This document shows, one piece after another, positions 7,992 to 26,249 of a stretch of DNA of 32,924 nucleotides. The DNA is taken from the NCBI GenBank assembly GCA_902798105.1, contig CADBVG010000006.1, forward strand, positions 1 to 32,924, read 5' to 3'. Numbering within the stretch: the first letter of the stretch is position 1; every line of letters begins with the position of its first letter. Both the position numbers and the translations under genes were made by a program. This stretch comes from an uncultured Eubacteriales bacterium. Its GTDB lineage: Bacteria; Bacillota; Clostridia; Christensenellales; Aristaeellaceae. Under the pieces are notes generated by a model that searched no databases, had not been told where the DNA came from, and saw only the letters and a program-made list of their open reading frames with translations.

Positions 7992-8016
7992 GCGATCAGC
8001 CCCGGGGGTCAATACC

Positions 8017-9441
8017 ATGGATGCATTTGAATACGACGCCTTTATCAGTTATTCCCACCGCGACCTGAAGTGGGCCAAATGGATTCAGGAGAAGCTGGAG
8101 ACCTTCCACATTCCCGACGGCGCCGATGAACCGTTCACGAATCGCCGCAGGATGCGCGTCTTCCGGGATCAGACGGACCTGGCCGGGGTGGAGGTAACGA
8201 CCTCGCTGCGCCGGGAGCTGCGCCTGTCGCGCTTCCTGGTGGTCGTCTGTTCGCCCAACAGCGCCGCCTCCCGCTGGGTCAACGACGAGGTGGCCTACTT
8301 CGGGGGCCTGGGGCGGCAGGACAAAATCATCGCCTTCATCGTCGATGGCGAGCCCGACAGCGACAACCCGGCGCTGGAATGCTATCCCCCGGAGATGCGC
8401 AGCACCGCCGAGCGCGCCATGCTGGGCGCGAACGTACAGGAGATCGGCAAGGCCAAGGCGCTTTTGAAGGTCGTCTCGCTGCTCATCGGCGTGCGCTTCA
8501 ACCGCCTGGTGGACCGGGAAAAGCAGCGCAGGCGCCGCAGCGCGATTACCATCGCCGCCATATTGTTGGTGGTCTCCGCGTCGCTGGCGGCGCTGCTTTG
8601 GCGAAACGCTCAGATATCCCGCCGGAACCGGGCGCTGTCCCGGGACGTCTACGGGGCTGCCATCGTGGCCTTCGCCCAGAAGGAGGTCCTCTCCCCGGAG
8701 GACTTCGACCGCATCCGGGAATCGGCGGAGGCGGGAAACACCTATGCCGCAACCCTGGTGGGCGACTGCTACGGCAAGGGCTGGGGCGTGCAGCGGGACG
8801 ACGCGGCGGCCGTCGCCTGGTACAGGCGGGCCGCGGAGGCCGGGGACACCATGGGGATGATCGCGCTGGCGAACTGCTACCTGTTCGGCACCGGCGTCGA
8901 GGTCGACGCGGGGAAGTCCTTCGAGTGGAACATGCGGGCCGCGGAGGCTGGCTCGCCGGAGGCCATGCTGAACGTGGCCCTGGACTACGAGGGCGGACAC
9001 GGCGCGCCGCAGAGCCCGGAGGCGGCGTTCATGTGGTACAGCCGGGCGGCGACGGAGGGGAATGACCTGGCCATGTACAACCTCGCGCGCTGCTACCGCA
9101 CCGGCTATGGCACCCCGGCCAGCCCTGACAAGGCCTTCTACTGGATGAAGGAGCTGGCGGAAAAGGGGAACACCGAGGCCATGTATAACCTGGCCATCAT
9201 GTACCAGGGGGGCTATGGCACCGCGGAGAACCCGAAGGCGGCCTATGCCTGGTACCGGAAGGCTGCGGACGCCGGGGACGCCGACGCCCTGTACATGACC
9301 GGCTGGTGCCTGGAGAACGGCTACGGCGTGGACGATCCTGCCCTGGAATGGTACACCCGGGCGGCCCAGGCTGGAAACGAGGACGCGGCAAGGGCACTCG
9401 AGCGGCTGGAAATGCCTGCGGGTCAGCCCTCCGTTGGTTGA
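8017..9441 (+). CDS. TIR-domain protein with one TM segment and Sel1 repeats
   Basis: The protein has 474 residues. Residues 1 to about 150 form a TIR domain: YDAFISYSHRDLKWAKWI at the start, FRDQTDLAGVEVTTSLRREL, and the putative NADase glutamate E91 in R86-W-V-N-D-E91, the WxxxE position used by catalytic TIR domains. A basic stretch (RRRRS) precedes a single TM helix at about 176-195. From about 240 onward six Sel1-like repeats follow (pattern A..G...A...L...Y..G.GV), a solenoid for protein binding. The frame is open from 7948, but ATG 8017 gives the clean TIR N-terminus. The ribosome site is weak (GGGGGT). It lies 25 nt after the peptidase and ends before a strong terminator. Signalling or defence is inferred from the family only. 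Confidence 0.88.
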   Translation: MDAFEYDAFISYSHRDLKWAKWIQEKLETFHIPDGADEPFTNRRRMRVFRDQTDLAGVEVTTSLRRELRLSRFLVVVCSPNSAASRWVNDEVAYFGGLGRQDKIIAFIVDGEPDSDNPALECYPPEMRSTAERAMLGANVQEIGKAKALLKVVSLLIGVRFNRLVDREKQRRRRSAITIAAILLVVSASLAALLWRNAQISRRNRALSRDVYGAAIVAFAQKEVLSPEDFDRIRESAEAGNTYAATLVGDCYGKGWGVQRDDAAAVAWYRRAAEAGDTMGMIALANCYLFGTGVEVDAGKSFEWNMRAAEAGSPEAMLNVALDYEGGHGAPQSPEAAFMWYSRAATEGNDLAMYNLARCYRTGYGTPASPDKAFYWMKELAEKGNTEAMYNLAIMYQGGYGTAENPKAAYAWYRKAADAGDADALYMTGWCLENGYGVDDPALEWYTRAAQAGNEDAARALERLEMPAGQPSVG

Positions 9442-9585: not shown

Positions 9586-10824
9586 ATGAAGAAGATTCTC
9601 GTACTCGTACTGGCTCTGGTCATGGCGCTGAGCGCCGTGTCCGCCCTGGCCGACATCACCATCGTCCAGAACAAGGTTGAGATCGACGCCGCGCTGCAGG
9701 AGTATGCGGCTGAGTTCTCCAAGGACGCCGGCTACAATGTGAAGGTCATCACCGCTGGCGGCTCCAGCGACTACAACACCGCCCTGAAGGCCGAGTTCGC
9801 CTCCGGCAAGGAGCCCGACATCTTCGTCATCGAGGGCCCCACCGGCTACGAGCTGTACAAGGACAAGATCGCCGATATGACCGGCGAAGAGTGGACCCAG
9901 TACACCGCAGCCGCCTACATGGACGGCGACAAGGTCGTCGGCTTCCCCGTGGCCGTCGAGGGCTACGGCATGGCCTACAACAAGGACATCCTGGACAAGG
10001 CCGGCATTGATCCCGCGACCCTGACCAACGTGGACGCCTATCAGGCCGCCTTCGAGAAGCTGGATTCCATGAAGGAAGAGCTGGGCCTGGACGCCGTGGT
10101 GTCCATGGTCGCCGGCACCGCCCCGGGCATGACCTGGGTCACCGGCCTGCACAACTTCAACATCTACCTGACCGTGGGCCTGGACCGCAACGACACCTCC
10201 ATCATCGACCAGGTGCTGGAAGGCAAGGTTGACGAGGACCGCTTCCATGCGTACTGCGAGTACGTCGCCCTGATCTTCAAGTACAGCGATCCCGAGATGC
10301 TGATCAACGGCACCCAGGATATGCAGCTGGCCGCCTTCGCCAACGGCAAGACCGCCTTCTACCACCAGGGCAACTGGATGGACCCCAACATCGTGGCCCT
10401 GAACGTGAACTTCCCCATGGCCTACGCCCCCCATGCGTTCCTGCATGAGGACACCGACGGCATCCTGGTGAACGCGCCCTCTTGGTACGTCGTGAACGAG
10501 AACGCCGGCAACGCCGAGCAGGCCATCGACTTCCTGAACGCGCTGGCAGATACCGAGGCCGGCCATGACTACATGGTCAACAAGGCCGCCATGGTGCCCG
10601 CCTTCACGAACGTGACCATCGAGCCCGCCACCCCCCTGTCCAAGTCCGTCATGGAGTGGAACGCCGCCGGCAAGACCTACAGCTGGCAGCAGTACAAGCT
10701 GCCCGACGGCTTCGGCATGGGCACCCTGGGCCCGATCTACGAGATGCTGGCTTCCGGCGCGATCGACGAGCCGACCTTCGAGCAGATGATGAAGGACGCC
10801 ATCGCCACCATCCCCACCCTGTAA
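9586..10824 (+). CDS. Extracellular solute-binding protein (family 1, sugar-type ABC importer)
   Basis: This 412-residue secreted binding protein has a signal peptide at residues 1-22 (MKKILVLVLALVMALSAVSA) cut after ALA, followed by a family-1 periplasmic-binding fold (FASGKEPDIFVIEGPTGYE; late segment MVNKAAMVPAFTNV). It should capture an oligosaccharide or related solute for the two permeases downstream. No lipobox cysteine is present, which is unusual for a Gram-positive binding protein that needs anchoring. The start is ATG 9586 with AGGAGG at 9571-9576. Codon choice is strongly biased (AAG, ATC, GCC), consistent with high expression. The substrate cannot be read from the sequence. Confidence 0.93.
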   Translation: MKKILVLVLALVMALSAVSALADITIVQNKVEIDAALQEYAAEFSKDAGYNVKVITAGGSSDYNTALKAEFASGKEPDIFVIEGPTGYELYKDKIADMTGEEWTQYTAAAYMDGDKVVGFPVAVEGYGMAYNKDILDKAGIDPATLTNVDAYQAAFEKLDSMKEELGLDAVVSMVAGTAPGMTWVTGLHNFNIYLTVGLDRNDTSIIDQVLEGKVDEDRFHAYCEYVALIFKYSDPEMLINGTQDMQLAAFANGKTAFYHQGNWMDPNIVALNVNFPMAYAPHAFLHEDTDGILVNAPSWYVVNENAGNAEQAIDFLNALADTEAGHDYMVNKAAMVPAFTNVTIEPATPLSKSVMEWNAAGKTYSWQQYKLPDGFGMGTLGPIYEMLASGAIDEPTFEQMMKDAIATIPTL

Positions 10825-10847
10825 TCTACGGGCATTCAACCACTTTT

Positions 10848-10880
10848 CTGCCGGAGGGGTTTCCTCTCCGGCAGAATTTC
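10848..10880 (+). terminator. Hairpin after the binding-protein gene (partial terminator or mRNA stabiliser)
   Basis: A perfect 9-bp stem, CTGCCGGAG (10848-10856) with CTCCGGCAG (10866-10874), is followed by AATTTC. Such hairpins between a binding-protein gene and its permeases commonly allow more binding protein than permease to be made. Confidence 0.65.
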
Positions 10881-10935
10881 TAAATGCGCATCCCTCGATG
10901 TGGGTACACCATGGACCAAAGCCTGGGGATGCGGC

Positions 10936-10965
10936 GGCGGCGCCTGCGCCGCCAGGGCAATTTTT
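10936..10965 (+). terminator. Second intercistronic GC hairpin
   Basis: A 7-bp GC stem (10936-10942 with 10947-10953, tetraloop CCTG) lies seven nt before a TTTTT run at 10961-10965. It lies between the binding protein and the permeases and may reduce read-through further. No promoter is obvious between this site and the permease start. Confidence 0.4.
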
Positions 10966-10991
10966 CAATATAAGCGAGAGGGGGAGATCGC

Positions 10992-11909
10992 TTGGAAAAG
11001 CAAAAGCTTTTCTACGGCCGGCGTGAGCGCAAGATCACCGAATTTCTGTTCCTGGTGCCGACGGTGCTGGCGTTCCTGCTGGTCATCATTGTACCGTTCA
11101 TCATCGGTATCTACTATTCCTTCACCGACTGGGACGGCGTGAATGCCGCCAAGAACGTGGTTGGTTTGGCCAACTACAGGGCTATCTTTACCGAGCCCGG
11201 CTTCCTGCACGCCTTCCTGACCACGGTGCTGTTCACACTGTTCAACGTCATTGCAGTGAACGTGGCGGCCTTCCTGATGGCGCTGCTGGTCACCAGCAAC
11301 GTCAAGGGCCGCAACCTGTACCGGGCCGGTTTCTTCGTGCCGAACCTGATCGGCGGCATCGTGCTGGGCTCTATCTGGCAGTTCATCTTCTCCAGCATAC
11401 TGCCTGCCGTGGGCAAGGCGCTGGGCTGGGGCTGGCTGTCGGCATCGCTGATCACCAACCCGAAGACCGTCGTGGGCGCGATGGTCACCGTGAACACCTG
11501 GCAGTACGCCGGCTACATCATGATGATTTACGTGGCGTCCATCCAGGGCATCAGCCAGCAGGTCATGGAGGCCGCCAGCGTGGACGGCGCCACCTACTGG
11601 ACCCGCGTGTTCAAGATCCTGATGCCGCTGATGGCCAACGCCTTCACGATTTCTCTGTTCCTGACGCTGACCAATTCCTTCAAGATGTACGACGTGAACC
11701 TGGCCCTGACCAACGGCGGCCCGACCACCCTGTTCATGGGCAAGCCGGTCCAGGCCTCCGAGCTGCTGGCGCTGAACATCTACAACACCGCCTTCAAGTA
11801 CTCGAAGATGGCCCTCGGCCAGGCCAAGGCCGTCATCTTCTTCGTGGTGCTGGTGGTCGTGTCGCTGGTTCAGGTCTCCATCAATAAGAGCAAGGAGGTG
11901 GAGATGTAA
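10992..11909 (+). CDS. Sugar-type ABC transporter permease (MalF-like)
   Basis: This 305-residue membrane protein has about six helices, the first at FLFLVPTVLAFLLVIIVPFI. The cytoplasmic EAA loop is QQVMEAASVDGATYWTRVFKILMP, which docks the ATPase. It forms the heterodimeric channel with the next gene. The start is TTG 10992, preceded by AGAGGGGGAG with about seven nt spacing. No ATG lies near the right place in this frame, and the first helix would be cut by any later start. Its stop overlaps the next ATG (TAATG), so translation is coupled. Confidence 0.92.
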   Translation: MEKQKLFYGRRERKITEFLFLVPTVLAFLLVIIVPFIIGIYYSFTDWDGVNAAKNVVGLANYRAIFTEPGFLHAFLTTVLFTLFNVIAVNVAAFLMALLVTSNVKGRNLYRAGFFVPNLIGGIVLGSIWQFIFSSILPAVGKALGWGWLSASLITNPKTVVGAMVTVNTWQYAGYIMMIYVASIQGISQQVMEAASVDGATYWTRVFKILMPLMANAFTISLFLTLTNSFKMYDVNLALTNGGPTTLFMGKPVQASELLALNIYNTAFKYSKMALGQAKAVIFFVVLVVVSLVQVSINKSKEVEM

Positions 11910-12802
11910 TGAGCCAGAACGCGCTGGATATCGTGGGCCAGAACAAGGCCCGGCAGAAGCGTCTGAGCATCCTGGCGGAGATAGGCTGCATACTGCTGTT
12001 CATACTGTTCATGATGCCCTTCTTCATCGTGCTGCTGAACTCCGCCCGTACCAACGCAGAGATCATCAACTCCGCCGTAGGCATGCCCGAGAACTGGGCA
12101 AACTTCAAGGAGAACATCGTCGCCGTCTGGAACAACCCCACCTTCAACTTCCTGAAGGCCCTGAAGGACTCCGTCATCATCACCGTGCTGTCCCTGGCGA
12201 TCATCTCCGTGTGCTCCGCCATGACGGCCTGGGTGCTGGTGCGCAACAAGACCAAGTGGTCCACGGCGTTGTTCATGATGTTCGTGGCGGCCATGGTCAT
12301 CCCCTTCCAGGTGGTCATGTTCCCGCTGATCACCTGGTTCAAGGACCTGGGCGATTTCCTGCACCTCCCGCTGCTGCGCAGCCACGGCGGTTTGGTGTTT
12401 GCCTACCTGGGCTTCGGCGAATCGATGACCATCTTCATCTTCCACGGCTTTGTGAAGAACATACCGCTGGAGATCGAGGAGGCGGCCGACATCGACGGCT
12501 GCTCCCGCGCGGGCACCTTCTTCAGAATCGTGTTCCCGCTGTTGCAGCCGGTGTTCGTCACCGTGTTGGTGCTCAACGGCCTGTGGATCTGGAACGACTA
12601 CCTGCTGCCGCTGCTGCTGCTGGGTTCCAATGGCGAGGTGCGCACCATCCCGCTGGCGGTGCAGGGCTTCATCGGCTCCTTCGTCAAGCAGTGGAACCTG
12701 ATCATGGTCTCCACCCTGCTGGCAATGCTGCCCATCATCATACTCTACATCTTCGCGCAGAAGTACATCGTGCAGGGCATGGTGGAAGGCGCGGTGAAGT
12801 AA
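11909..12802 (+). CDS. Sugar-type ABC transporter permease (MalG-like)
   Basis: This 297-residue membrane protein carries the EAA motif EIEEAADIDGCSRAGTFFRIVFPLL and a C-terminal helix set ending IILYIFAQKYIVQGMVEGAVK, typical of MalG/CUT1 permeases. It partners the gene just upstream, which it overlaps by one base. The gene is followed by a perfect hairpin and no ATPase gene. CUT1 importers often share one MsmK-type ATPase encoded elsewhere, so its absence does not imply a defect. Confidence 0.93.
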   Translation: MSQNALDIVGQNKARQKRLSILAEIGCILLFILFMMPFFIVLLNSARTNAEIINSAVGMPENWANFKENIVAVWNNPTFNFLKALKDSVIITVLSLAIISVCSAMTAWVLVRNKTKWSTALFMMFVAAMVIPFQVVMFPLITWFKDLGDFLHLPLLRSHGGLVFAYLGFGESMTIFIFHGFVKNIPLEIEEAADIDGCSRAGTFFRIVFPLLQPVFVTVLVLNGLWIWNDYLLPLLLLGSNGEVRTIPLAVQGFIGSFVKQWNLIMVSTLLAMLPIIILYIFAQKYIVQGMVEGAVK

Positions 12803-12870: not shown

Positions 12871-12897
12871 CTGATTTGTCGCTCCGCGACAAATCAG
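12871..12897. repeat. Dispersed palindrome, copy 3
   Basis: The arms CTGATTTGTCGC (12871-12882) and its complement (12886-12897) surround the loop TCC, followed by AATTTAT as in copy 2. The loop is the reverse complement of the loop in copy 1, so this copy may be inverted. It lies between the importer terminator and the next promoter. Confidence 0.82.
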
Positions 12898-12908: not shown

Positions 12909-12937
12909 TTGACCGCATTGCCGCTTTGGAGTATAAT
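12909..12937 (+). promoter_or_regulatory. Sigma-A promoter of the sensor cluster
   Basis: TTGACC (12909-12914) and TATAAT (12932-12937) are 17 nt apart, immediately after palindrome copy 3. It probably drives the three genes from 12994 to 18748, which follow without a clear internal terminator. Confidence 0.88.
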
Positions 12938-12993: not shown

Positions 12994-13935
12994 ATGGGAT
13001 ATAAACGCTGTTTGATGTGTCTGGTCCTTGTCGTGCTGGCGGCATTCACCGCATTGGCGCCGGCAATGGCGGAGAGCCTGGAGGATGGCGAAGCAGATGT
13101 GCGCTTCATGGAAAACGAATGGAATTACGTGGAAGAATCCATAGATGCCTCCGCCGGAATCCCCATGGACGCTACGGGCGTGCTGGCCGACATCCGCGAG
13201 GCGGGGGTGCTTCGGGTGGCTACCGAGCCCTACTTTCCGCCCCAGGAGTTCATTGATCCCGACCTGGAGGGACAGGACAGCTATGTGGGTTCGGACATGA
13301 AGCTGGCCCGCCTGATCGCCCAGCGCATGGGCGTGGCGCTGCAGATCGTGCCGATGGACTTTTCCGAGGTGCTGAACGCCGTGGCGGACGGCAGCTGTGA
13401 CCTGGCCATCTCGGCGCTGTCCTATACGCCGGGGCGCGCTTCCCGTATGACAATGTCCAAGGGTTACTATTACGCGGGCAGCCGCGCCGGCAGCGGGCTG
13501 ATGATTCGCGCCGCGGACAGCGGCCGCATCACCGGCATCGCCAACCTGGTGGGGCGTAACATCGGCGCCCAGAGCGGTTCGCTGCAAGAAGTGCAGATGT
13601 ACGAAAACGTCTTCCATTACCGGGAATTCCGGCGCATGAATTCGGTGCAGGAGTTGTACAATGCCCTGATGAACGGCACGATCGACGCGGCCATGGTGGA
13701 CGCGGGCACCGGTCATGCCTACATCGACAGCAATCCCCGCTGCGGCCTGATGATGGTGCCCGGGGTGCACTTTACGCTGGAGGAGCAGTTCGACGGCGAC
13801 CGCATCGCCGCCCGGAAGGGCGAGGGCCGGCTGATTGCGTTTGTCAACGGCGTAATCGACGAGGTGCTGGCCTCCGGTGCGTACATGGAATGGTATGAGG
13901 AAGCGGCAGCCCGGGCAAACGCGCTGGGATTATAG
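12994..13935 (+). CDS. Exported family-3 substrate-binding protein
   Basis: This protein has 313 residues. A signal peptide (MGYKRCLMCLVLVVLAAF, cut near AMA at 26) precedes a SBP_bac_3 fold: VLADIREAGVLRVATEPYFPPQEF, then VGSDMKLARLIAQRMGVALQIVPMDFSEVLNAVADGSCDLAISALS. Such proteins bind amino acids or similar small ligands, either for ABC import or as sensor domains. The frame is open from ATG 12946, but ATG 12994 is preferred because GAGGTGAT (12983-12990) sits just upstream and the signal peptide starts here. There is no lipobox cysteine and no amino acid permease or ATPase nearby. The large HD-GYP receptor follows instead, so a sensory role is inferred. Confidence 0.87.
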   Translation: MGYKRCLMCLVLVVLAAFTALAPAMAESLEDGEADVRFMENEWNYVEESIDASAGIPMDATGVLADIREAGVLRVATEPYFPPQEFIDPDLEGQDSYVGSDMKLARLIAQRMGVALQIVPMDFSEVLNAVADGSCDLAISALSYTPGRASRMTMSKGYYYAGSRAGSGLMIRAADSGRITGIANLVGRNIGAQSGSLQEVQMYENVFHYREFRRMNSVQELYNALMNGTIDAAMVDAGTGHAYIDSNPRCGLMMVPGVHFTLEEQFDGDRIAARKGEGRLIAFVNGVIDEVLASGAYMEWYEEAAARANALGL

Positions 13936-13997
13936 ATGCGGCGGCACCCCGCTGCCAGGGAAGGATTTCATCGGCCTGAAAGGGAGGGATGCGACAA

Positions 13998-16900
13998 ATG
14001 AAACGGTGGAAGATCTGGCAGATCAGCCTGTTTGTCGTGTTTTGCATATTGATCAATTACGGGGGCAGGGTGTTTACCAAGCGCTACGATCTGCCCCTGT
14101 GGCTGGATGCCTACGGCACGGTGCTGTGCGCTTACGCCGGCGGACCGGTGTGCGGCGCGGTGGTGGGCCTGGCCAGCAACCTCATCTATGGCATGATGAA
14201 CGGCGTTTCTTACATCTATGCGCTGACCAGTGTGGCCATGGGCCTGATCGTGGGTTTCCTGGCGCGTCGAAAGAAGCTGAACAACATGTTCAACACCATG
14301 ACGGTGGCGGCGCTCACGGCCTTTGCCGCGATGGCCATCTCGGTGCCGCTGAACATGATCTTCTACGGCGGCAATACCGGCAACCTGTGGGGCGACGGCG
14401 TGATCGGCTTCCTGCGGGAGCGGGGATTGCCGCTGGTGCCCTGCCAGATCCTGGGCCAGTTCTACGTGGAATTCCTGGACAAGCTGCTGACGCTGGTACT
14501 GCTGTTCGTGACGGTGCGACTGGTGCGCCGCCTGCGCCGCCGTGGCGCGGCGGCGCAGGCGGCCGGGGAGACGCTGGCAGCGCTGATCGTCGCCCTTGCG
14601 CTGGGCTTTGCTGTGACCGTGCCCGCCGCCAAGGCGGAGGACAGCGAGGCCATCGACTACAACGATTACGTGCAGACCGTGTACAACAGCAACAACGGCC
14701 TGCCCTGCGGCGAGGCCAACGACATCGCCCAGACCAACGACGGCATCCTGTGGATCGGCACCTATGCCGGCCTGTACCGATACAACGGCCGGGAATTCAC
14801 CTGGATGGACGGCTACGAGTCCGTGCGCAACGTGAACTGCCTCTATGTGGACGAGGAAGGCCGCCTGTGGATCGGTACCAACGATAACGGCCTGTCCATC
14901 TGCATCAACGAGCGCATCTCCAATGTGGTGGACCAGTCCAAGGGCCTGCCTTCCAACTCAGTGCGATCCATCATACAGAGCGCTGATGGCTACTACTACG
15001 TGGGCACTACCAGCAGTATGCAGATACTGACCCTGAAAAACGGCCTGAAACGGGTCGGTACGCTGAGGGAGGTCAACTACGCCGACAAGATTGCCGCTGA
15101 CAATGCGGGCCATGTGGCGGCGATCACCTCCGACGGCCGGCTGTTCCTGATGCAAAAGGGTGTGATCCAGAGCTCGCTGCAGCTGCCGGAGGGCGAGGAG
15201 CTGTTCAACAGCGTCTGCTTCGACCAGGACGGCGTGCTGCTGGTGGGCACCTCTACCAACCACATCTATGTGTTCGAGGTGGGGGAGGGCTGGTTCGACG
15301 AGAAGACCGTGCGCACCGGTGAAGGGCTGAAGAACATCAACGACCTCTACTACGTGGGAGGCGGCGAACTGTTCATCTCTGCCGACAACGGCGTGGGCTA
15401 CATCAGCCGGGAGAATGAATTCGAAGCCGTCAACACCAACGACTTTAACAACTCCATCGACAACATGCTGATCGACTACCAGGGCAACCTGTGGTTCACC
15501 TCGTCCCGCCTGGGCCTTCTGCGCATGGCGCCATCGGCCTTCAAGGACGTGTACACCACCGTGGGCATGGACAGCCGGGTGGTCAACGCGGTGGAGCGCT
15601 GGCAGGAGGAGTACTACTTCGGCACCGATAAGGGCCTGGACGTGGTGGACGCCGCCTGCAAGAATCGCATCAGCAATGCCCTGACGGAAAAGCTGGACGG
15701 TGTGCGCATACGCTGCCTGCTGGTGGACACTCAAAACCACCTGTGGATATGCACCTACGGCAACGGCCTTCTGGAGGTGGAGCCCGATGGCACGGAGCAC
15801 CTGTACAACAGCGACAGCGGCAGCTTCGGCAACCGTGCCCGGGTGGTGACGGAGCTCTCCGACGGCACCATCATGGCAGGCGGCGACACCGGCATCAGCT
15901 TCATCAGGGATCATGAGATCGTGGAAACCATCGGCTATGCCGACGGGCTGATCAATTCAATGATCCTCACCGTGACCGAGCTGCCCGACGGCCGCATATT
16001 GGCCGGTACCGACGGCGATGGCATCGCGGTGCTGGTGGACGGCAAGGTGGACCACATGCTGACCCGGGAAAACGGGCTCAGCTCCGGCGTGATCCTGCGC
16101 ACCATCTCCGACCCCAAGGGGGAGGGCGTTTTCATCGTCACCAGCAACGGCCTGTGCTATATGGACCAGACCGAGGTCGTTCGCAGCCTCGATAACTTTC
16201 CCTATTATAACAATTACGACATTTGGCCCCGGGACAGGAACACGCTGTTTGTGATGAGCAGCGCGGGCATCTACGTGGTGGACCGGGACGAGCTGCTCTC
16301 CGGCAGCGAGAGCATCACCTATGATCTGCTGGACGCCCGCCGGGGCCTGACCAGCGCCCTGACCGCCAACTCCTGGAACTACTGCGACGATCACGGCGAC
16401 CTGTTCCTGCCCTGCGACAAGGGCGTGTTCATCATCGACACCGAGCGCTACACCTCGGGCATCAACGCCTACCGTATGTCGGTCAAGAGCGTGAAGCTGG
16501 ACAACACCGTCAAGAGCGTGGGTCGCCGCAGCACCATTGAAATCGGCCGCGGTGTGGGCAAGGTGGAGCTAATGCCGGAGATCATTAACTACACCATTCA
16601 GGATCCCTATGTGGGCTACTGGCTGGAGGGCTTCGACAAGGAATGGACCATCATGCCCCAGAGCGCGCTGGGGGCTATCACCTACACCAACCTCGCTTCC
16701 GGAAGCTACACCTTCCATCTTGCGGTGTTTGACAACAACAAGGGCAACATACTGGGCGAGCGGGATTATACCCTGGTCAAGGCCAGGGAGATCTACGACA
16801 ATCCCTGGTTCGTGGCCTACATCGTGCTGGTGCCGATGCTGATGGTCATCTGGGTCACCTGGTACAGTATGCGCAGGCGCATGCAGTACGCCCTGGAGCG

Positions 16901-17537
16901 CCAGGCCCACGAGATGGCCCTGATGAAGCAGCAGATTCAGATGGGCAACGAGACCATCATCGCCATCGCCAAGGCCGTCGACGCCAAGGACGAACGCACC
17001 AGCCAGCACTCCCAGCGGGTGTCCCAGTATTCGGTGCTCATCGCCAGGGAACTGGGCTTCAGCGAGAAGGAATGCGAGAACCTGCGCCGTGCCGCCCTGA
17101 TGCACGACATCGGCAAGATCGGCATCCCTGACCGCATCCTCAACAAGCCCGCCCGCCTGGATGACGACGAGTATGCGATCATGAAGTCCCACGTTACACG
17201 CGGCGCTGAGATCCTGAAGGATTTCACGCTGATCGAGAACGTGGTGGAGGGCGCACGCTACCACCACGAGCGATACGACGGCCGCGGTTATCCCGACGGT
17301 CTGAAGGGCGAGGAGATTCCGCTGTACGGGCGTATCATCGGCGTGGCGGACGCCTTCGACGCCATGACCGCCAATCGCGTCTATCGCAAGAAGATGGACT
17401 TTGGCTATGTGCTCAATGAGATGAAGAACGGCCGGGGTACCCAGTTCGACCTGCAGATCGTGGATATCATGCTGCGGCTGATCGACGAGGGGAAGATCGA
17501 CCTGAACACGCTGTATCCGCCCAAGGCGGACGAGTGA
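13998..17537 (+). CDS. Membrane receptor: S-component-like N-terminus, sensor propeller, Y_Y_Y domain, HD-GYP output
   Basis: The protein has 1179 residues. Residues 1 to about 210 are polytopic, with several helices resembling ECF-type S components (LDAYGTVLCAYAGGPVCGAVVGLASN). From about 215 to 820 there are many two-component-regulator propeller blades (DGILWIGTYAGLYRYNG; EGRLWIGTNDNGLSI; QGNLWFTSSRLGLLRM). A Y_Y_Y domain (about 850-935) and a TM helix (about 937-957) follow. The C-terminal HD-GYP domain has H1036-D1037 (HDIGKIGIP), HHERYDGRG and G1097-Y1098-P1099, all intact. It should therefore hydrolyse c-di-GMP in the cytosol in response to extracellular binding. ATG 13989 touches the ribosome site, so ATG 13998, about ten nt after AGGGAGG, is chosen. 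Exported binding proteins flank it. Confidence 0.9.
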   Translation: MKRWKIWQISLFVVFCILINYGGRVFTKRYDLPLWLDAYGTVLCAYAGGPVCGAVVGLASNLIYGMMNGVSYIYALTSVAMGLIVGFLARRKKLNNMFNTMTVAALTAFAAMAISVPLNMIFYGGNTGNLWGDGVIGFLRERGLPLVPCQILGQFYVEFLDKLLTLVLLFVTVRLVRRLRRRGAAAQAAGETLAALIVALALGFAVTVPAAKAEDSEAIDYNDYVQTVYNSNNGLPCGEANDIAQTNDGILWIGTYAGLYRYNGREFTWMDGYESVRNVNCLYVDEEGRLWIGTNDNGLSICINERISNVVDQSKGLPSNSVRSIIQSADGYYYVGTTSSMQILTLKNGLKRVGTLREVNYADKIAADNAGHVAAITSDGRLFLMQKGVIQSSLQLPEGEELFNSVCFDQDGVLLVGTSTNHIYVFEVGEGWFDEKTVRTGEGLKNINDLYYVGGGELFISADNGVGYISRENEFEAVNTNDFNNSIDNMLIDYQGNLWFTSSRLGLLRMAPSAFKDVYTTVGMDSRVVNAVERWQEEYYFGTDKGLDVVDAACKNRISNALTEKLDGVRIRCLLVDTQNHLWICTYGNGLLEVEPDGTEHLYNSDSGSFGNRARVVTELSDGTIMAGGDTGISFIRDHEIVETIGYADGLINSMILTVTELPDGRILAGTDGDGIAVLVDGKVDHMLTRENGLSSGVILRTISDPKGEGVFIVTSNGLCYMDQTEVVRSLDNFPYYNNYDIWPRDRNTLFVMSSAGIYVVDRDELLSGSESITYDLLDARRGLTSALTANSWNYCDDHGDLFLPCDKGVFIIDTERYTSGINAYRMSVKSVKLDNTVKSVGRRSTIEIGRGVGKVELMPEIINYTIQDPYVGYWLEGFDKEWTIMPQSALGAITYTNLASGSYTFHLAVFDNNKGNILGERDYTLVKAREIYDNPWFVAYIVLVPMLMVIWVTWYSMRRRMQYALERQAHEMALMKQQIQMGNETIIAIAKAVDAKDERTSQHSQRVSQYSVLIARELGFSEKECENLRRAALMHDIGKIGIPDRILNKPARLDDDEYAIMKSHVTRGAEILKDFTLIENVVEGARYHHERYDGRGYPDGLKGEEIPLYGRIIGVADAFDAMTANRVYRKKMDFGYVLNEMKNGRGTQFDLQIVDIMLRLIDEGKIDLNTLYPPKADE

Positions 17538-17557
17538 GGGGAGGGGTGACGACGGGC

Positions 17558-18748
17558 ATGAAGCGCGTATACATAACCACGATCGTGACGGCGCTGGTGG
17601 TGGTCGTGGCGTTCAGCATGGTGTATTCCGTCTGGGACGGCACCACCCGGATGGATGCCCTGAAGGTGGGCTTCATCTATGAAAACGACGAGAGCACGCC
17701 TTACACCTACAATTTTATGCTGGCCCAGGAGGCGCTGGAGGCCAAGCTGCCAGGGCGGGTGAGGGTATATACCCACACCAACGTGCCCGAGGACGAGAGC
17801 GCCGACGCCCTGCACGCCCTGGTGCGGGAAGGCTGCGCCATCGTGTTTACCAACAATTACAGCCCCAAGATCGTCGAGGAGGCACGGCGATACCCCGACA
17901 TTCAGTTCTGCCAGACCTCCTACAACGCCGCGAACCATGACGACTATCCGTCGAATTACCATACCTTCAACGGCGCGATTTACCAGGCCCGCTATGTCAG
18001 CGGCATTGCCGCCGGGCTCAAGCTGAGGGACCTGATCGACAACCACATCATCGATTCCGACGCGGCGCTGGTGGGCTATGTGGGCGCCTATCCCTCGGTG
18101 GAGGTGGTCTCCGGATATACGGCTTTCCTGCTGGGGGTGCGCTCGGTGGCCCCGGAGGCGACCATGCGCGTGCGCTATATCTACGCCTGGAGCAGCTACA
18201 ATCGGGAGAAGGCCGCCGCCCGGGCCCTGATCGACGAAGGCTGTGTGGTGATCGGCCAGCATACTGACACCATCGGCCCTGCCATGGCCTGCGAGGAGGC
18301 AAACGTCGCCCATCCCGTCGTGCATGTGGGCTATAACCAGAGCATGGTGGACATCGCCCCATCCACATCTCTGATCAGCACCCGGGTCAACTGGGTGCCC
18401 TACGTGCTGGGCGCGGTGGAGGCCCTGCTGGAGGGCAGGGAGATCGAGAAGAACGTGCCCGGCAGCGTCTTTGGCAACGACATGTGTGCCGGCTTCGACC
18501 ACGGCTGGGTGGAGCTGACCGAGCTGAACCGCCAGCTGGCTCCATACGGCACCGAAGCAAAGATAAACAAGGCCATTGACGCCATGCGCAGGGGTACGCT
18601 GGAGGTGTTCAAGGGGAACTATACCGGCGTCGATCCTGACAATCCCGGTGATACCATCGACCTCAGCCAGGGGTATAAGGAAAACGCGAATACGTCCTGG
18701 CCTACATTCCACTACCTGCTGGACGATGTGATTACCGTGGAGGAGTAG
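17558..18748 (+). CDS. BMP/PnrA-type substrate-binding protein, membrane anchored
   Basis: The protein has 396 residues. An N-terminal hydrophobic segment (YITTIVTALVVVVAFSMVYSVW, about 4-25) with no clear cleavage site or lipobox suggests a membrane anchor. It is followed by a basic-membrane-protein fold (ALKVGFIYENDEST; GCAIVFTNNYSPKIVEEARRYPDIQFCQTS; VGYVGAYPSVEVVSGYTAFLLGVRSVAPEA; DEGCVVIGQHTDTIGPAMACEE). BMP-family proteins usually bind nucleosides for ABC import. No such permease or ATPase is near, and the gene follows the HD-GYP receptor directly. The frame extends to GTG 17534, overlapping the receptor stop. ATG 17558, after AGGGGAGGGG, is chosen as the likeliest start, though GTG 17546 cannot be excluded. 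It is probably a ligand sensor for the receptor. Confidence 0.86.
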   Translation: MKRVYITTIVTALVVVVAFSMVYSVWDGTTRMDALKVGFIYENDESTPYTYNFMLAQEALEAKLPGRVRVYTHTNVPEDESADALHALVREGCAIVFTNNYSPKIVEEARRYPDIQFCQTSYNAANHDDYPSNYHTFNGAIYQARYVSGIAAGLKLRDLIDNHIIDSDAALVGYVGAYPSVEVVSGYTAFLLGVRSVAPEATMRVRYIYAWSSYNREKAAARALIDEGCVVIGQHTDTIGPAMACEEANVAHPVVHVGYNQSMVDIAPSTSLISTRVNWVPYVLGAVEALLEGREIEKNVPGSVFGNDMCAGFDHGWVELTELNRQLAPYGTEAKINKAIDAMRRGTLEVFKGNYTGVDPDNPGDTIDLSQGYKENANTSWPTFHYLLDDVITVEE

Positions 18749-18768: not shown

Positions 18769-18797
18769 TTGACAATACCCCCTGGGGGTGTTATACT
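18769..18797 (+). promoter_or_regulatory. Sigma-A promoter with an internal palindrome
   Basis: TTGACA (18769-18774) and TATACT (18792-18797) are 17 nt apart. The spacer holds a perfect palindrome, ACCCCC-T-GGGGGT (18777-18789), placed where a repressor or MerR-type activator could sit. A second TTGACA at 18762 would give too long a spacer. Confidence 0.82.
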
Positions 18798-18829
18798 ATC
18801 CCCATCAAATACCGGGAAGGGGTATATGG

Positions 18830-19525
18830 ATGTCGAACGAAATGAACAACGAAGCCTTGCAGGAGGGCATCTATCAGCAGGCGAAGGACAAATTCCTGCA
18901 CTATGCCGGGGCGGAGGATCTGCGCAATGCGGAGGCACTCTTCCACAAGATCGAGGATTACAAACAGTCTGCGGCCTACATCGAAAAGTGCGAAACGCTG
19001 CTGGCCTACATGCCGGGCTGCACGGTGACCTTTGGCAGCTTCGAGGGCGAGCCCATCCGATGGCGGATCGTGGACCAGCGGGGCAAGATGCGCCTTTTGC
19101 TTGCCGAGGAGATCGTCACCCGCCGCTGTTATCACCGCACCACGCTGGAGGACGCCACCTGGTCGGATTGCTCGCTGCGCAAGTGGCTGAACAAGGACTT
19201 CCTGGAGAGCGCCTTCACTCCCGCGGAGCGCATGAAGATCGTCCCCAACAAATTGAAAAATTTGCGCAACCGCAAGTTCTATACCCAGGGTGGCCCGGAC
19301 ACCATGGACCGGGTACACGTTCCCGGCGTGGAGGAGATCGAGCGCTACATGCCCGAACAGGCCGACCGCGCCGGCAGCGACTGGTGGTGGCTGCGCTGTC
19401 CCGGCAGCAATCTTTTCAGCACCGTGGCTGTGTATGACGACGGCACCATCTATGAAAACGGCATACACATCGACTACGAGGGCGGCGGGGTGCGGCCCGC
19501 GGTGTGGGTGCTTCTGAAGGTATAA
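18830..19525 (+). CDS. DUF6273 domain protein
   Basis: The protein has 231 residues. It opens with a helical, TPR-like pair (residues about 5-60: DLRNAEALFHKIEDYKQSAAYIEKCETLL), then a DUF6273 domain: VTFGSFEGEPIRWRIVD, MRLLLAEEIVTRRCYH, WSDCSLRKWLNKDF, WWWLRCPGSN and the ending GVRPAVWVLLKV. This domain is widespread in gut Clostridia and has no established function. The fold is thought to be related to C-type-lectin or formylglycine-generating-enzyme-like domains, which is not testable here. No signal peptide or TM is visible, so it is cytosolic. The start is ATG 18830 with AAGGGG at 18817-18822. It is a single-gene unit with its own promoter and terminator. Confidence 0.82.
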   Translation: MSNEMNNEALQEGIYQQAKDKFLHYAGAEDLRNAEALFHKIEDYKQSAAYIEKCETLLAYMPGCTVTFGSFEGEPIRWRIVDQRGKMRLLLAEEIVTRRCYHRTTLEDATWSDCSLRKWLNKDFLESAFTPAERMKIVPNKLKNLRNRKFYTQGGPDTMDRVHVPGVEEIERYMPEQADRAGSDWWWLRCPGSNLFSTVAVYDDGTIYENGIHIDYEGGGVRPAVWVLLKV

Positions 19526-19596: not shown

Positions 19597-20196
19597 TCAG
19601 AACTGCCGTATCAGCGCCACCAGCTTGCCCAGCACGGTGACGCTGTCCACATAGATGGGGGCCATCGTGCTGTTTTCCGGCTGGAGGCGCACCCGGCCAT
19701 CCTCGTAGAAAATGCGTTTCAGCGTGGCCTCGTACTCGGGGGTCATGGCGACCACGATCTCGCCGTTCTCGGCGGTGTCCTGTTGGCGCAGCACCACGAT
19801 GTCGCCATCCAGGATGCCCGCGTCGATCATGCTCTCGCCCTCCACCCGTAGCGAGAACATGTCACCCTGGCCCAGCACGCTCTGGGGCAAGGACAGGTAT
19901 TCCTCGATGTTTTCGATGGCCAGGATCGGCTGGCCGGCGGTTACGCGTCCCACCAGCGGCACGCTCCGCCCCCGGGCCTGTGTGCCGTCCAGTACCTCCA
20001 ATGCCCGGGGCTTGGTGGAGTCCCGGCGAATCAGGCCCTGCTCTTCCAAATGGTTCAGGTGGGCGTGGACCGTGGAGGTGGAGCGCAGGCCTACAGCGGC
20101 GCATATCTCACGCACCGACGGGGGATAGCCCTTTTCCTCGATCTCCGATTTGATAAAATCCAATATCCGCTGCTGGTTTTCATGGGAAGCGCGCAT
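19597..20196 (-). CDS. lexA: LexA repressor (SOS regulator, S24 autoprotease)
   Basis: This 199-residue protein represses DNA-damage genes until RecA filaments trigger self-cleavage. The N-terminal winged helix (residues 1-65: QQRILDFIKSEIEEKGYPPSVREICAAVGLRSTSTVHAHLNHL) binds the operator. The cleavage bond A87-G88 lies in GRVTAGQPILA. The catalytic dyad is S122 (VEGESMIDAGI) and K160 (ATLKRI). The frame extends to a TTG at 20211, but those codons overlap the GGAGGA ribosome site. ATG 20196 lies seven nt after it and is the proper start. Two LexA boxes and a promoter lie just upstream, so it is autoregulated. It is divergent from mraZ and convergent with the DUF6273 gene. Confidence 0.96.
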   Translation of the reverse strand: MRASHENQQRILDFIKSEIEEKGYPPSVREICAAVGLRSTSTVHAHLNHLEEQGLIRRDSTKPRALEVLDGTQARGRSVPLVGRVTAGQPILAIENIEEYLSLPQSVLGQGDMFSLRVEGESMIDAGILDGDIVVLRQQDTAENGEIVVAMTPEYEATLKRIFYEDGRVRLQPENSTMAPIYVDSVTVLGKLVALIRQF

Positions 20197-20209
20197 GGTC
20201 ATTTCCTCC

Positions 20210-20221
20210 AAACAAATGTTC
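20210..20221 (-). promoter_or_regulatory. LexA box 1 (downstream operator of lexA)
   Basis: On the minus strand this reads GAAC-ATTT-GTTT, one base from the Gram-positive SOS box GAAC-N4-GTTC. It lies between the expected transcription start (about 20222) and the ribosome site. Confidence 0.8.
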
Positions 20222-20910: not shown

Positions 20911-21276
20911 ATGAAAAGGATGCCAGCCTCCAACAGGTTGCGTGAGCAAAAGCTGAGCCGAGTGCTCATGATCGCCTTTGCGGTGGTGGTGCTCCTCGGC
21001 GTGATCGCCCAGATCACGATGATGGCGCAGTTGTCCACGCAGAGCAAGCAGACTTACGCGCTGCGCAGCGAGTCCAAGGAGCTCACGAGCCGAATCCAAA
21101 ACCTGAACCGCAGCCTGGATCAGTTCCACAATCGGGAACGGATCACGGCCAGGGCCCTGAAACTGGGTATGCAGCTGCCGGATGAAACGCAGCTCCGGGT
21201 GGTAAACCTGCCCGGGCTGTCCTACAGCACAACCGCGCAGAGCGCCGAGAATACCGGCGCTGGGGAAATGGAGTAA
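20911..21276 (+). CDS. ftsL: FtsL-type septum protein
   Basis: This 121-residue bitopic protein has a short basic cytosolic tail (RLREQKLSR), one TM helix (about 18-40: VLMIAFAVVVLLGVIAQITMMA), and then a predicted extracytoplasmic coiled coil (STQSKQTYALRSESKELTSRIQNLNRSLDQFHN). The tail reads RITARALKLGMQLPDETQLRVVNLPG, the usual FtsL/DivIC ending. It should bind FtsQ/DivIB and help activate the septal synthase pair. The start is ATG 20911 after GGAGGA. The assignment rests on size, layout and its place before the division PBP; sequence conservation in this family is low. Confidence 0.85.
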   Translation: MKRMPASNRLREQKLSRVLMIAFAVVVLLGVIAQITMMAQLSTQSKQTYALRSESKELTSRIQNLNRSLDQFHNRERITARALKLGMQLPDETQLRVVNLPGLSYSTTAQSAENTGAGEME

Positions 21277-21306
21277 ACTATTTTTCCAGGGCGGGGAGGG
21301 GTGCGC

Positions 21307-23424
21307 TTGGTTCTCACAGGGCCGGTCATCCGTCGCCGCCTTGCGCTATGCATGGCTGCTTTTTTCCTGCTGTTCACCGCGCTGGGCGGACGACTTTTCT
21401 GGTTGCAGGTGGTCGAAGGCAGAGCCTTACAGCGGCGGGCCCAGTCCCAGTGGACCAGCGAGAGCGCCATACGGCCCACCCGGGGCCGCATACTGGACCG
21501 AAAGGGCGCGGTGCTGGCCCAGAGCGCCACGGCCTACACCGCCTCCGCCAGCCCGCGGCAGGTGGTGGACACCGATCGGTTCGCCGCGCTGCTCTCGCCG
21601 GTGCTGGACATGGAGGCCGCCGTCATCCACAAGAAGGTGTCCGACACCAGCCGGGGCGGGGTCACGCTGAAGCGCCAGCTGTCCCGGGAGACGGCGCAGC
21701 AGCTCAAGCGCATGAAGGCTGAATACGCCGCCGCGGGCTCCGACGCACTGAACGGCCTGTACCTGGAGGAGGAGAGCAAGCGCTACTATCCGATGGGCGA
21801 ATTCGCCACCCAGCTGATCGGCCTGACCACCATCGACGGCGTGGGCCAGGCGGGGCTGGAGCAGTCGCTGGACCGCTACCTTTCCGGCAAGGCAGGGCAC
21901 GTGCTCAGCCAGGTGGACGGCAAGGGTCGCACCCTGGGCTACGGCGAGACGGAGTACATAGCTGCCATCAATGGCGGGTCAGTGACGCTGACCATCGACG
22001 CTTCCATACAAAGCTTCGCCGAGCAAGCCGCCCGGGAGGCCCTGGAGGTCAACAACGCCAAGGCGGTGCGGGTGCTGGCCATGGACCCGGCCACCGGCGA
22101 GATCCTGGCGATGGTCAACAAGCCGGACTACGACCTGAACAACCCGCCCCGCGACGACGTGGAGACCCTGACCACCCGGATGCGCAACCGGGTGCTCACC
22201 GACGCCTATGAGCCGGGTTCCACCTTCAAGACGCTTACCGCCGCCGCTGCGCTGGACGCGGGACTGGTGTCGGTGGACGAGGGCTTTTACTGCGCGGGTT
22301 CCGTGGTGGTGGATGGTGGAAAGATCCGCTGCTGGGGCAAGCCACACGGCGCGGAGACCTTTGCCCAGGCGCTTCAAAATTCCTGCAACCCTGTGTTCGT
22401 GGAGATGGGCCTGCGCCTGGGGACAGAAAAGCTGTACCACTATATCGACGCCTTCGGCATCGGCAGGCGGACCGGGGTGGACATCCCCGGCGAGGCCGAC
22501 GGAATCGTGATTTCAAAGCAGGCCGTCAAGCGGGTTGACATCGCCCGCATCGGCTTCGGCCAGTCGGTGGCTGTGACGCCGATCCAGCTGCTTACCGCCG
22601 TGTGCGCCGTCGTCAACGGCGGCAACCTGATGAAGCCCTGGGTGGTGAAGTCCGTCTGTGACGCCGACGGGGAAATCATCCGCCGGGGCGCGCCGCAGGT
22701 GGTGGGGCATCCCATTGCCCCGCAGACCTCTGCCGTGATGCGTCGCCTGCTGGAGGATGTGGTCACCCTGGGCGGCGGCAAGAACGCCTACATCCCCGGT
22801 TACCACGTGGGCGGCAAGACCGGTACGGCCCAGGTCTACATAGACGGCGTGGTGTCAAGGGAAACCCACATCGGCTCCTTCGTGGGTTTCGCTCCGGCCA
22901 ATGACCCGCGCATCGCGGTGCTGTTGGTGGTGGACGAGGCGGACGTGCCGGTGGACTTCGGTTCGGTGACGGCAGCGCCTTTCGCCAGGGAGATCCTCGA
23001 AAAGTCGCTGCCCTACCTGGGCGTGGCCCCGGACACCGGCGAGACGCCCGCCCCGGGGGTGACGGTGCCCGACGTGACTGGCCTGGACGTGGATGAGGCC
23101 CGGAAGGCCCTCGCTGAGGCGGGACTGGACAGCGTGCTGGATGGGGCGGGGGGCAAGGTGATCCGCCAGCTGCCGGTGGCCGGCGCGCAGATGAGCGCCG
23201 GGGCGCTGGTGATGCTGTACGTGGCCGGGCCCTCGGCGGATGGCGAATCGGTACAGGTGCCCGACGTGGCGGGTATGCCCGTGACCGAGGCCAACCGGCT
23301 GCTGAAATCCTACGGGCTGGAGATGCAGATCGAGGGCAGCGGCCTGGCGGTGAGCCAGTCGCCGGCTGCCGGGACAACGGTGAATCCAACGACGCGGGTC
23401 GCGGTGCGCTTCCAGCCGCCATGA
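21307..23424 (+). CDS. ftsI: Division penicillin-binding protein with two PASTA domains (FtsI/PbpB/SpoVD type)
   Basis: This 705-residue class B PBP is the septal peptidoglycan transpeptidase that works with FtsW. It has a TM helix (LALCMAAFFLLFTALGGRLFWLQ), a dimerisation/pedestal region (RPTRGRILDRKGAVLAQS), then the transpeptidase domain. The catalytic S305-T-F-K308 lies in EPGSTFKT, followed by SCN in QNSCNPVF and KTG in VGGKTGTAQVY. Two C-terminal PASTA domains follow (VTVPDVTGLDVDEARKAL and VQVPDVAGMPVTEANRLL). The frame begins at GTG 21301, only one nt from GGGGAGG (21293-21299). TTG 21307, seven nt away, is better placed and is used. SpoVD, the sporulation paralogue, has a similar layout, but the dcw position favours the division enzyme. 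Confidence 0.93.
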   Translation: MVLTGPVIRRRLALCMAAFFLLFTALGGRLFWLQVVEGRALQRRAQSQWTSESAIRPTRGRILDRKGAVLAQSATAYTASASPRQVVDTDRFAALLSPVLDMEAAVIHKKVSDTSRGGVTLKRQLSRETAQQLKRMKAEYAAAGSDALNGLYLEEESKRYYPMGEFATQLIGLTTIDGVGQAGLEQSLDRYLSGKAGHVLSQVDGKGRTLGYGETEYIAAINGGSVTLTIDASIQSFAEQAAREALEVNNAKAVRVLAMDPATGEILAMVNKPDYDLNNPPRDDVETLTTRMRNRVLTDAYEPGSTFKTLTAAAALDAGLVSVDEGFYCAGSVVVDGGKIRCWGKPHGAETFAQALQNSCNPVFVEMGLRLGTEKLYHYIDAFGIGRRTGVDIPGEADGIVISKQAVKRVDIARIGFGQSVAVTPIQLLTAVCAVVNGGNLMKPWVVKSVCDADGEIIRRGAPQVVGHPIAPQTSAVMRRLLEDVVTLGGGKNAYIPGYHVGGKTGTAQVYIDGVVSRETHIGSFVGFAPANDPRIAVLLVVDEADVPVDFGSVTAAPFAREILEKSLPYLGVAPDTGETPAPGVTVPDVTGLDVDEARKALAEAGLDSVLDGAGGKVIRQLPVAGAQMSAGALVMLYVAGPSADGESVQVPDVAGMPVTEANRLLKSYGLEMQIEGSGLAVSQSPAAGTTVNPTTRVAVRFQPP

Positions 23425-23459
23425 CGGGCAGCGCGCATTGTCTGTCGGCAAAACCGCGT

Positions 23460-23490
23460 CATGGCGCGAAACCGTAGCGGTGGCGCCATG
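23460..23490 (+). terminator. Hairpin after the PBP gene
   Basis: The arms CATGGCGC (23460-23467) and GCGCCATG (23483-23490) enclose a further ACCG/CGGT pairing. There is no T-tract. It could slow polymerase or stabilise the mRNA. Confidence 0.4.
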
Positions 23491-23520
23491 GCCATGATGT
23501 GAACGACGCGTATAGAAGGT

Positions 23521-23599
23521 CCTTCGACTCCGGCTGCGCCTCCGCTCAGGATGACGCCGCCGCGCAAATGTGTCATCCTGGACGAAGCGAAGGATTTTT
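23521..23599. repeat. MITE-like inverted repeat ending in a T-run
   Basis: CCTTCG (23521-23526) pairs with CGAAGG (23588-23593), and TCAGGATGAC (23546-23555) pairs with 23572-23581 at nine of ten positions. A TTTTT run (23595-23599) follows. The wording (CCTTCG...CTCAGGATGAC) is of a kind of short hairpin repeat scattered in many bacterial genomes. Here it could also act as a terminator between the PBP gene and murE. Confidence 0.65.
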
Positions 23600-23648
23600 G
23601 ATTTGAAAATAGCATGATACATATCGTCATTCTGGGGGAGGCTGTCGG

Positions 23649-25100: not shown

Positions 25101-25126
25101 GATTCAAGGAAGGAACATAACATAAG

Positions 25127-26122: not shown

Positions 26123-26126
26123 CGGA

Positions 26127-26249
26127 ATAATGAGGAATTAGGAATGAGGAATGAGGAATTGTGGAGTGCCTCCCGGTGGATTTCAATCAATGAAATCCGT
26201 CAGGATTTCCACAACCATTCCTCATTTCTAATTCCTCATTCCTAATTAT
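26127..26249. repeat. MITE-like 123-bp hairpin element
   Basis: The left arm (26127-26165, rich in GAGGAAT and GGAAT units) pairs imperfectly with the right arm (26208-26249). Inside is a perfect 8-bp hairpin, GGATTTCA (26178-26185) with TGAAATCC (26191-26198). No ORF or transposase is present. It sits right after the mraY stop and before murD, as if inserted in the operon, and shares GAAATCC/GGATTTC wording with the hairpin at 3-22. Confidence 0.75.

Follow-up and report, generated by a model that had tools for sequence, protein, structure and literature searches.

It is established that binding proteins can stimulate receptors, c-di-GMP (cyclic di-GMP) enzymes among them (PMC9602780 and PMC8967002, in the text available). 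In the NspS–MbaA system a transmembrane c-di-GMP enzyme learns of a metabolite outside the cell through a periplasmic binding protein (PMC8967002, available text; see also PMC9993111). A 2022 review states, in the part available, that for c-di-GMP networks the only member of the binding-protein clan studied up to then was a fused SBP_bac_3 domain, that of RmcA (PMC8846402). The locus described here lies in a stretch of 32,924 nt of contig C6 (this whole stretch is called the window below) from the draft genome of an uncultured Eubacteriales bacterium of the Aristaeellaceae (3.24 Mb in 146 contigs, 89.7% complete). Among named records its near relatives are Clostridia of the rumen and gut, mainly metagenome bins. 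Three open reading frames (ORFs) on the + strand encode a secreted family-3 (amino-acid type) binding protein (SBP3, 12994..13935; Pfam SBP_bac_3, 79 bits), a receptor of 1179 aa (REC, 13998..17537; Pfam Reg_prop, Y_Y_Y and HD_5) and an N-terminally anchored PnrA/BMP-type binding protein (BMP, 17558..18748; PF02608 Bmp, 66 bits). Judging from sequence comparison, we think it fairly probable that this operon encodes one sensory unit, a binding-protein-coupled c-di-GMP phosphodiesterase receptor in which REC is cut.

Binding-protein-stimulated c-di-GMP receptors are already known; what differs here is the receptor, the output and the two classes of binding protein. As in NspS–MbaA (Vibrio cholerae, Sinorhizobium meliloti), a binding-protein gene is fixed beside the receptor gene, but the output there is GGDEF–EAL and that of REC is HD-GYP, so that the trio would work alike without being a member of that system, and it differs further in its two binding-protein classes (NspS is a PotD-like protein of the polyamine type and neither protein of the trio is of this kind), its propeller/Y_Y_Y sensor and its S-component-like module. 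With the 5TMR-LYT/S-component-fold receptors LytS, BtsS and YpdA REC shares an N-terminal S-component fold in which the helix-1 AXXXA motif is mostly missing, but it has no H0 helix ahead of the fold, lacks the NXR motif found between helices 1 and 2 of LytS-type receptors (0/86 different full-length REC proteins, that is 111 less 12 under 1100 aa and 13 duplicates), and continues with an internal signal peptide and then a large outer propeller. An outer propeller with a cytoplasmic output is also the plan of the Reg_prop–Y_Y_Y receptors (hybrid two-component, Reg_prop–HD-GYP and Reg_prop–SpoIIE types), and REC paralogs of this type occur in the same family and the same genome; unlike REC, the six that were read lack the S-module and open with a signal-peptide-like helix, and five paralogs without the S-module (L076–L080) gave no match to either binding protein in the adjoining genes. 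BMP keeps the aromatic sandwich and the Glu of AtzT and Brucella 3s99, but it is membrane-anchored, its gene goes with that of a receptor and not with those of an ABC (ATP-binding cassette) importer, and it does not keep S97 and N169 of AtzT. The FbcH-type bacterial polyprotein, in which a membrane protein and a signal-peptide-bearing protein are made in one chain and cut into two, follows the same fusion logic as REC, although FbcH is respiratory and REC sensory. No description of this operon was among the matches listed in the open-access literature, which lacks most subscription journals.

Two samples of related loci were used to follow the gene order. A search with REC over 200 genomes of the same family (the REC-selected set, 33 loci) gave 32 full-length orthologs at 57–76% identity, not counting the REC of the window or a partial copy, clearly separate from long paralogs of about 31–38% identity that match from residue ~170–225 or later. 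SBP3 lies directly 5' of REC in 32/32 assessable loci of this set and BMP directly 3' of REC in 32/32 (L075 and L054 have a contig end on the relevant side). For the BMP-selected set, contigs of named genomes were scanned with a BMP alignment; as the best 80 of 361 relatives, this set is not an even sample; in it REC lies directly 5' of BMP in 78/78 assessable loci (L109 and L154 are cut by contig ends), with a median REC–BMP gap of −4 nt, i.e. overlapping genes, and a median SBP3–REC gap of 35 nt where SBP3 is present. Since the order is kept in both sets the trio is no chance arrangement, and a chance neighbourhood was rejected. The first-pass annotation, which had proposed a dual-ligand receptor complex from the letters of the window alone, had pointed to gene order in relatives as a check on its idea, and in the assessable REC-selected loci the order is the same; its tight cluster of three genes is real, the gaps of 62 and 20 nt are correct with its start codons, and its domains are confirmed by Pfam. 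Two genomes carry two clusters each, G150 (L052 and L073) and G186 (L053 and L072). L075 was left out of alignments A1 and A2, and L054 (no BMP) and L069 (part of BMP) out of A4. In L073 and L161 REC is broken by stops with otherwise normal neighbours, and the genome of L073 (G150) has a second, intact copy.

The binding proteins of the trio keep to the receptor and not to ABC importers. When 114 trio loci (the window, the 33 and the 80, with 13 duplicates; many flanks are a few kb) were searched by blastp with ten ABC proteins, a BMP-type permease was found in 0/114 and an amino-acid-type permease together with an ATPase in 1/114 (L071, ~2.7 kb 5' of SBP3). In a class-wide search of 391 genomes BMPs above 500 bits were found only in our own genome and two others, and the ABC-linked BMPs, at 335 bits and below, fall in a class clearly separate from that at 545–683 bits. 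Nine BMP loci were read (the two other high scorers, the next six by rank and one lower, G701): each of the two high scorers lies directly behind a REC-type gene, and 7/7 lower-scoring BMPs are adjoined by an ABC ATPase and two permeases (translations judged by eye). A separate BMP in our own genome is likewise followed by an ABC ATPase and permeases (by eye). As the nearest outside BMPs sit in ABC operons, the BMP of the trio looks taken over from transport. Some 2 kb behind one of the two high scorers (L230) there are also ABC genes of the SBP3 type, which include a binding protein of their own.

REC itself appears to be made as a fusion of a six-helix S-component-like membrane module (residues 1–182; 13998..14543), an internal signal peptide and a propeller receptor, and the first-pass annotation had overlooked both the module and the internal signal peptide. 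The outer propeller region (Reg_prop repeats, PF07494, 88.6 bits; residues ~216–870, 14643..16607) is followed by a Y_Y_Y domain (PF07495, 33.6 bits; residues 874–915 matched, 16617..16742), a transmembrane helix seen in the hydropathy plot (residues ~938–956, 16809..16865) and an HD-GYP domain (HD_5, 139.5 bits; 16968..17456) with the sequence HDIGK...HHERYDGRGYP at residues 1036–1099, all on the + strand. The full HD-GYP catalytic motif (HD, His, HH, GYP) is present in 86/86 REC proteins, from which we infer that the domain is a c-di-GMP phosphodiesterase, and c-di-GMP signalling is plausible in this genome because it contains 36 GGDEF matches (35 above the cut-off) and five HD_5 matches. 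Median identity to the REC of the window is 0.66 in the propeller, 0.46 in the S-module and 0.23 in the linker and internal helix.

The internal signal-peptide-like segment occupies residues 193–213 (LAALIVALALGFAVTVPAAKA; 14574..14636, +), with a hydrophobic helix at residues ~193–208, the sequence AKA/ED at 211–215 (the slash marks the candidate cut) and a positively charged linker ahead (median net charge +3). A strict site, defined as A, V, S or T at −3 and A at −1, follows the internal helix in 82/86 REC proteins, compared with 16/79 BMP anchors from the same loci and 43/47 SBP3 signal peptides; scored in the same way across REC, the site pattern occurs at the other outward helix ends in 17, 43 and 3 of the 86 proteins as against 83/86 at the internal helix. 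Two matches to Peptidase_S26, the signal peptidase I family, are present in the genome. These features suggest that REC is a polyprotein with an internal signal-peptidase-I site, and the simplest history would be that an S-component gene was fused to the gene of a receptor with a signal peptide, selection having since preserved the peptidase site. A Met within the linker of 26/86 REC proteins makes an internal translation start possible in some of them, not in most. As regards bacterial internal signal peptides in the open-access literature, the matches listed held only viral papers.

The ligands can be predicted from the pockets of solved relatives. The best of these for BMP are Brucella 3s99 (141 bits) and AtzT (117 bits). 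In AtzT guanine is sandwiched by Tyr45 and Trp194 and held by Glu165, Asn218, Asn220 and Ser97, and 3s99 was modelled with adenine (PMC6834077, available text). When this pocket was mapped onto BMP by hand from the alignment (BMP numbering from 17534), the sandwich was found to be kept (Y57 for Tyr45 in 78/83 and W219 for Trp194 in 83/83), as was the glutamate (E190 for Glu165, 79/83); Asn218 corresponds to H243 (His in 80/83), Asn220 to D245 (D in 65 and N in 15 of 83) and Ser97 to the variable N108, and the QHTD stretch is closer to 3s99 than to AtzT. BMP is likely to bind a purine base, which fits the pocket residues better than the nucleoside-like ligand of the first-pass annotation. Its amino-acid-like ligand for SBP3 agrees with what we found: the best matches of SBP3 are amino-acid-binding proteins, and R164 (50/50) and D252 (45/50), assigned by motif, are kept at the positions that we take to serve the alpha-carboxylate (Arg) and the amino group (Asp) of the amino acid in family 3, so that we predict an amino acid as its ligand. 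Between the signal peptide of SBP3 (MGYKRC...APAMA/ES; 12994..13071, +) and the part matched by solved SBPs there is a conserved N-terminal extension of ~25 residues, N..N[YF]V...GIP (13105..13179, +), in which N57 and I72 are kept in 50/50 and V62 and P73 in 49/50 proteins; its loose motif is found in 62/65 proteins (L001 left out), it is as conserved as the fold (median identity 0.60 as against 0.57 for the body), and none was seen in six transport-type SBP3s that were read. We infer that this extension may be a docking segment.

SBP3 could be scored in 67 of the 78 BMP-selected loci (the other 11 are cut by contig ends), being present in 33 and absent from 34; 13 BMP-selected loci repeat REC-selected ones, and without these repeats there are 20 with SBP3 and 34 without. 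All but two of the absences (32/34) fall in one Butyrivibrio/Lachnospiraceae clade, the others being L138 and L161 (the latter is not on the tree). In a tree of the 86 REC proteins the SBP3-less clade forms a group of 32, mostly named Lachnospiraceae, with an SH-aLRT value of 100, nested among SBP3-bearing rows, and L138 lies outside it; the rows L083, L090 and L113, labelled 'no' for SBP3, are cut contigs, and L090 holds part of the SBP3 gene. A single loss of SBP3 in one clade is the simplest reading, unproven because the tree has a midpoint root that serves for drawing only. No SBP3 ortholog was found elsewhere in 7/7 SBP3-less genomes tested, where the best matches reach at most 111 bits as against 443–483 bits for the cluster copies in three control genomes. 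The trio is probably the older form and REC with BMP the core, and this two-gene core occurs in the isolates Butyrivibrio sp. NC2007, Butyrivibrio sp. FCS014 and Lachnospiraceae bacterium MC2017. A universal dual input was rejected on the strength of these absences. The dual-ligand complex of the first-pass annotation survives in that the binding proteins keep to the receptor; as an obligatory pairing it is unsupported, since one clade does without SBP3.

The reading we favour is as follows. BMP would be anchored on the outside of the membrane through its N-terminal helix, probably uncleaved, and bind its purine base there, while SBP3 would be secreted and bind an amino acid. One or both would dock on the propeller/Y_Y_Y region outside, and the docked or ligand-bound state would be passed through the single transmembrane helix behind it to the HD-GYP domain, the presumed response being hydrolysis of c-di-GMP. 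Signal peptidase I would probably cut the internal signal peptide, leaving the module and the propeller receptor in a 1:1 ratio, and the S-component-like module would probably act as a third, membrane-embedded ligand sensor or as an assembly partner. REC and BMP would form the core, with SBP3 as a second input that many lineages have kept and one clade has lost.

Several observations weigh against this scheme. Shuffled post-helix segments give the strict site in ~65/86 REC and 22/79 BMP, an effect of Ala-rich composition that makes the site count alone moderate evidence, and the helix end with the pattern in 43/86 REC proteins (H3) is a second place where it is frequent. A search for a footprint of SBP3 docking, as positions relaxed in the SBP3-less clade only, found just seven in REC (897 and 911, in the Y_Y_Y region, among them) and none in BMP, compared with 137 and 62, respectively, for the reverse pattern, although this test is weak because there is less diversity within the SBP3-less clade than among the other rows. 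Correlations of pairwise identity among the three proteins (0.72–0.83) are uninformative, being expected from linkage alone. The linkage of BMPs outside the trio to ABC genes also has exceptions, for alongside a further BMP of our own genome (297 bits, on contig C34) no nucleoside-type ABC genes were seen.

The alternative that stands up best leaves REC uncut and makes the internal hydrophobic segment a plain seventh transmembrane helix. The ease with which Ala-rich segments produce such sites by chance speaks for it, and we regard it as a serious contender, though the less probable account of this segment. What tells against it is that the Ala at −1 is conserved to 93% and that E or D follows the cut in 62/82 sites while the linker is otherwise unconserved; a conserved −1 Ala within a region of 0.23 identity is a stronger point than the number of sites. 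The internal helix is, moreover, homologous in place to the N-terminal signal-peptide-like helix with which the six paralogs without the S-module open (judged by eye). A more elaborate form of our own proposal, in which a cut-off S-component sensor with its receptor, an anchored purine-binder and an SBP3 docked by its N-terminal tail make up a three-input receptor that sums into the c-di-GMP output, is tentative and in our view rather doubtful as a whole.

It is also conceivable, if unlikely, that REC and BMP alone are the receptor, responding to purine only, and that SBP3 does another job, scavenging or presenting amino acids, without touching REC. This would explain why SBP3 can be absent from about half of the assessable BMP-selected loci with no ortholog left in such genomes, and why SBP3 docking has left no footprint, but it sits badly with the place of SBP3 directly 5' of REC in every assessable REC-selected locus and the short gap between the two genes, with the amino-acid-type permease found in just one of the trio loci, with the specific N-terminal extension that SBP3 retains besides its fold, and with the confinement of nearly all absences to one clade.

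The S-module might instead belong to transport, forming with a shared energy-coupling factor (ECF) module a vitamin transporter to which the receptor is joined and whose state it senses. The best family match of the module is indeed a putative ECF S component (NF045596, ECF_S_CD3073; 85 bits, under the cut-off of 180, with E 3e-24 when the module is taken by itself), found in 33/33 members of the REC alignment, and EcfT-family genes are present in 8/8 relatives tested. PF07694 (5TM-5TMR_LYT) matches as well, with 31.6–35.9 bits (above its cut-off of 24.6) and at E<=0.01 in 23/33 members, opening at profile position 15 and REC residue 2. The AXXXA motif of helix 1 is needed for ECF coupling (PMC11109136, available text), but it is present in only 10/86 REC proteins and absent from the REC of the window, and no EcfT-family (CbiQ) match was found in our own draft genome at its 89.7% completeness, whether through loss or an assembly gap; as 8/8 relatives have EcfT, the latter is a weak argument for a receptor role. 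These profile and motif results make the module a relative of both the ECF S components and the 5TMR-LYT family and a standard member of neither, and we consider the transporter very unlikely. A search of solved structures by sequence with the S-module gave 0 matches at E<=1. The paper on S-component-fold receptors describes many fused domains, and the words HD-GYP and propeller are missing from its main text as available (PMC11109136).

That SBP3 and BMP simply feed shared ABC permeases elsewhere, the receptor merely tuning behaviour to the same nutrients, is more improbable still, for although both families are classical ABC subunits with other members in this genome (one BMP with ABC genes), a BMP-type permease is missing from all 114 trio loci, the nucleoside-type ABC operon of the genome has its own BMP, and ABC-linked BMPs fall in the separate, lower score class.

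If the favoured reading is right, a single c-di-GMP receptor of Clostridia has drawn two classes of binding proteins from transport into its service, Reg_prop–HD-GYP receptors have a ligand route, S-component-fold receptors gain HD-GYP and propeller architectures, and there is a bacterial sensor that may mature by internal signal-peptidase cutting. The clade without SBP3 offers a natural test of whether the receptor can do without its second input, and the named isolates with the two-gene core open the system to testing.

As to the gene calls, a longer SBP3 ORF from 12946 is possible, but the ATG at 12994 appears the better start, having GAGGTGATC ahead of it and the signal peptide opening there. 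BMP starts at the ATG at 17558, with an alternative GTG at 17534 that overlaps the REC stop. A candidate promoter for the trio is a sigma-70-type site found by consensus scan (TTGACC-17-TATAAT; 12909..12937, +), which together with a terminator-like hairpin at 12871–12897 parts the trio from the upstream genes. The site is only suggestive because the region holds about as many as shuffled sequence does (4 promoter-like sites against 3.0, and 7 terminator-like ones against 4.5), so that of the single upstream promoter proposed earlier the site is present, and the number of such sites is near chance expectation. The earlier remark that no permease for either binding protein is nearby is loose if read as no permease at all, since directly 5' of the trio genes for a sugar-type ABC importer (SBP_bac_8 and two permeases; 9586–12802, +) include two BPD_transp_1 permeases ending at 12802, but these have their own sugar-type binding protein. 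No ATPase for this importer was found among the window genes scanned with Pfam. Close homologs of it (85–89%) adjoin the trio in 1/33 relatives' loci (L049), and weak permease matches (22–34%) lie farther from the trio in three others (L054, L069 and L070); these permeases were rejected as partners of the trio. Just 3' lies a gene for a DUF6273 protein (18788–19525, +) with a promoter-like TTGACA-17-TATACT at its start (18769–18797), and this protein had no match among the relatives' loci of the REC-selected set.

Elsewhere in the genome there is a second S-component-like receptor (L195:7202–9343, − strand; G000:C34), with 53.7 bits to alignment A2 and an HD-GYP output. The C34 BMP lies ~3.6 kb from it on the same strand, non-adjacent, and on the other strand L195:5222–6650 encodes what reads by eye as a permease and an ATPase, a pair of another type. 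In the rest of the window, lexA lies on the opposite strand (19597–20211), and a cell-wall and division cluster (20911–32755, +) follows downstream with a transpeptidase, Mur ligases, FtsW, an FtsQ-type protein, FtsA and FtsZ. At the upstream end, 987–2726 (+) encodes a 579-aa protein in which a MatE transporter is joined to HATPase_c_2 (87 and 34 bits), and elsewhere in the genome the gene behind that of a Reg_prop–SpoIIE protein (L081:732–4007) encodes 574 aa that look by eye like a MATE transporter; the two are possibly variants of one theme, a transporter plus a phosphatase/kinase-like switch. A protein with a TIR domain (TIR_2 and ThsB_TIR above the cut-off) and Sel1 repeats (7948–9441, +) could be a defence protein or an NAD-consuming effector, and 5190–6167 (+) encodes an NYN nuclease-type domain with an OST-HTH/LOTUS domain. 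Finally, a 1035-aa frame in L198 (G000:C30:10001–30000) holds three successive SBP_bac_3 matches above the cut-off and a fourth below it.

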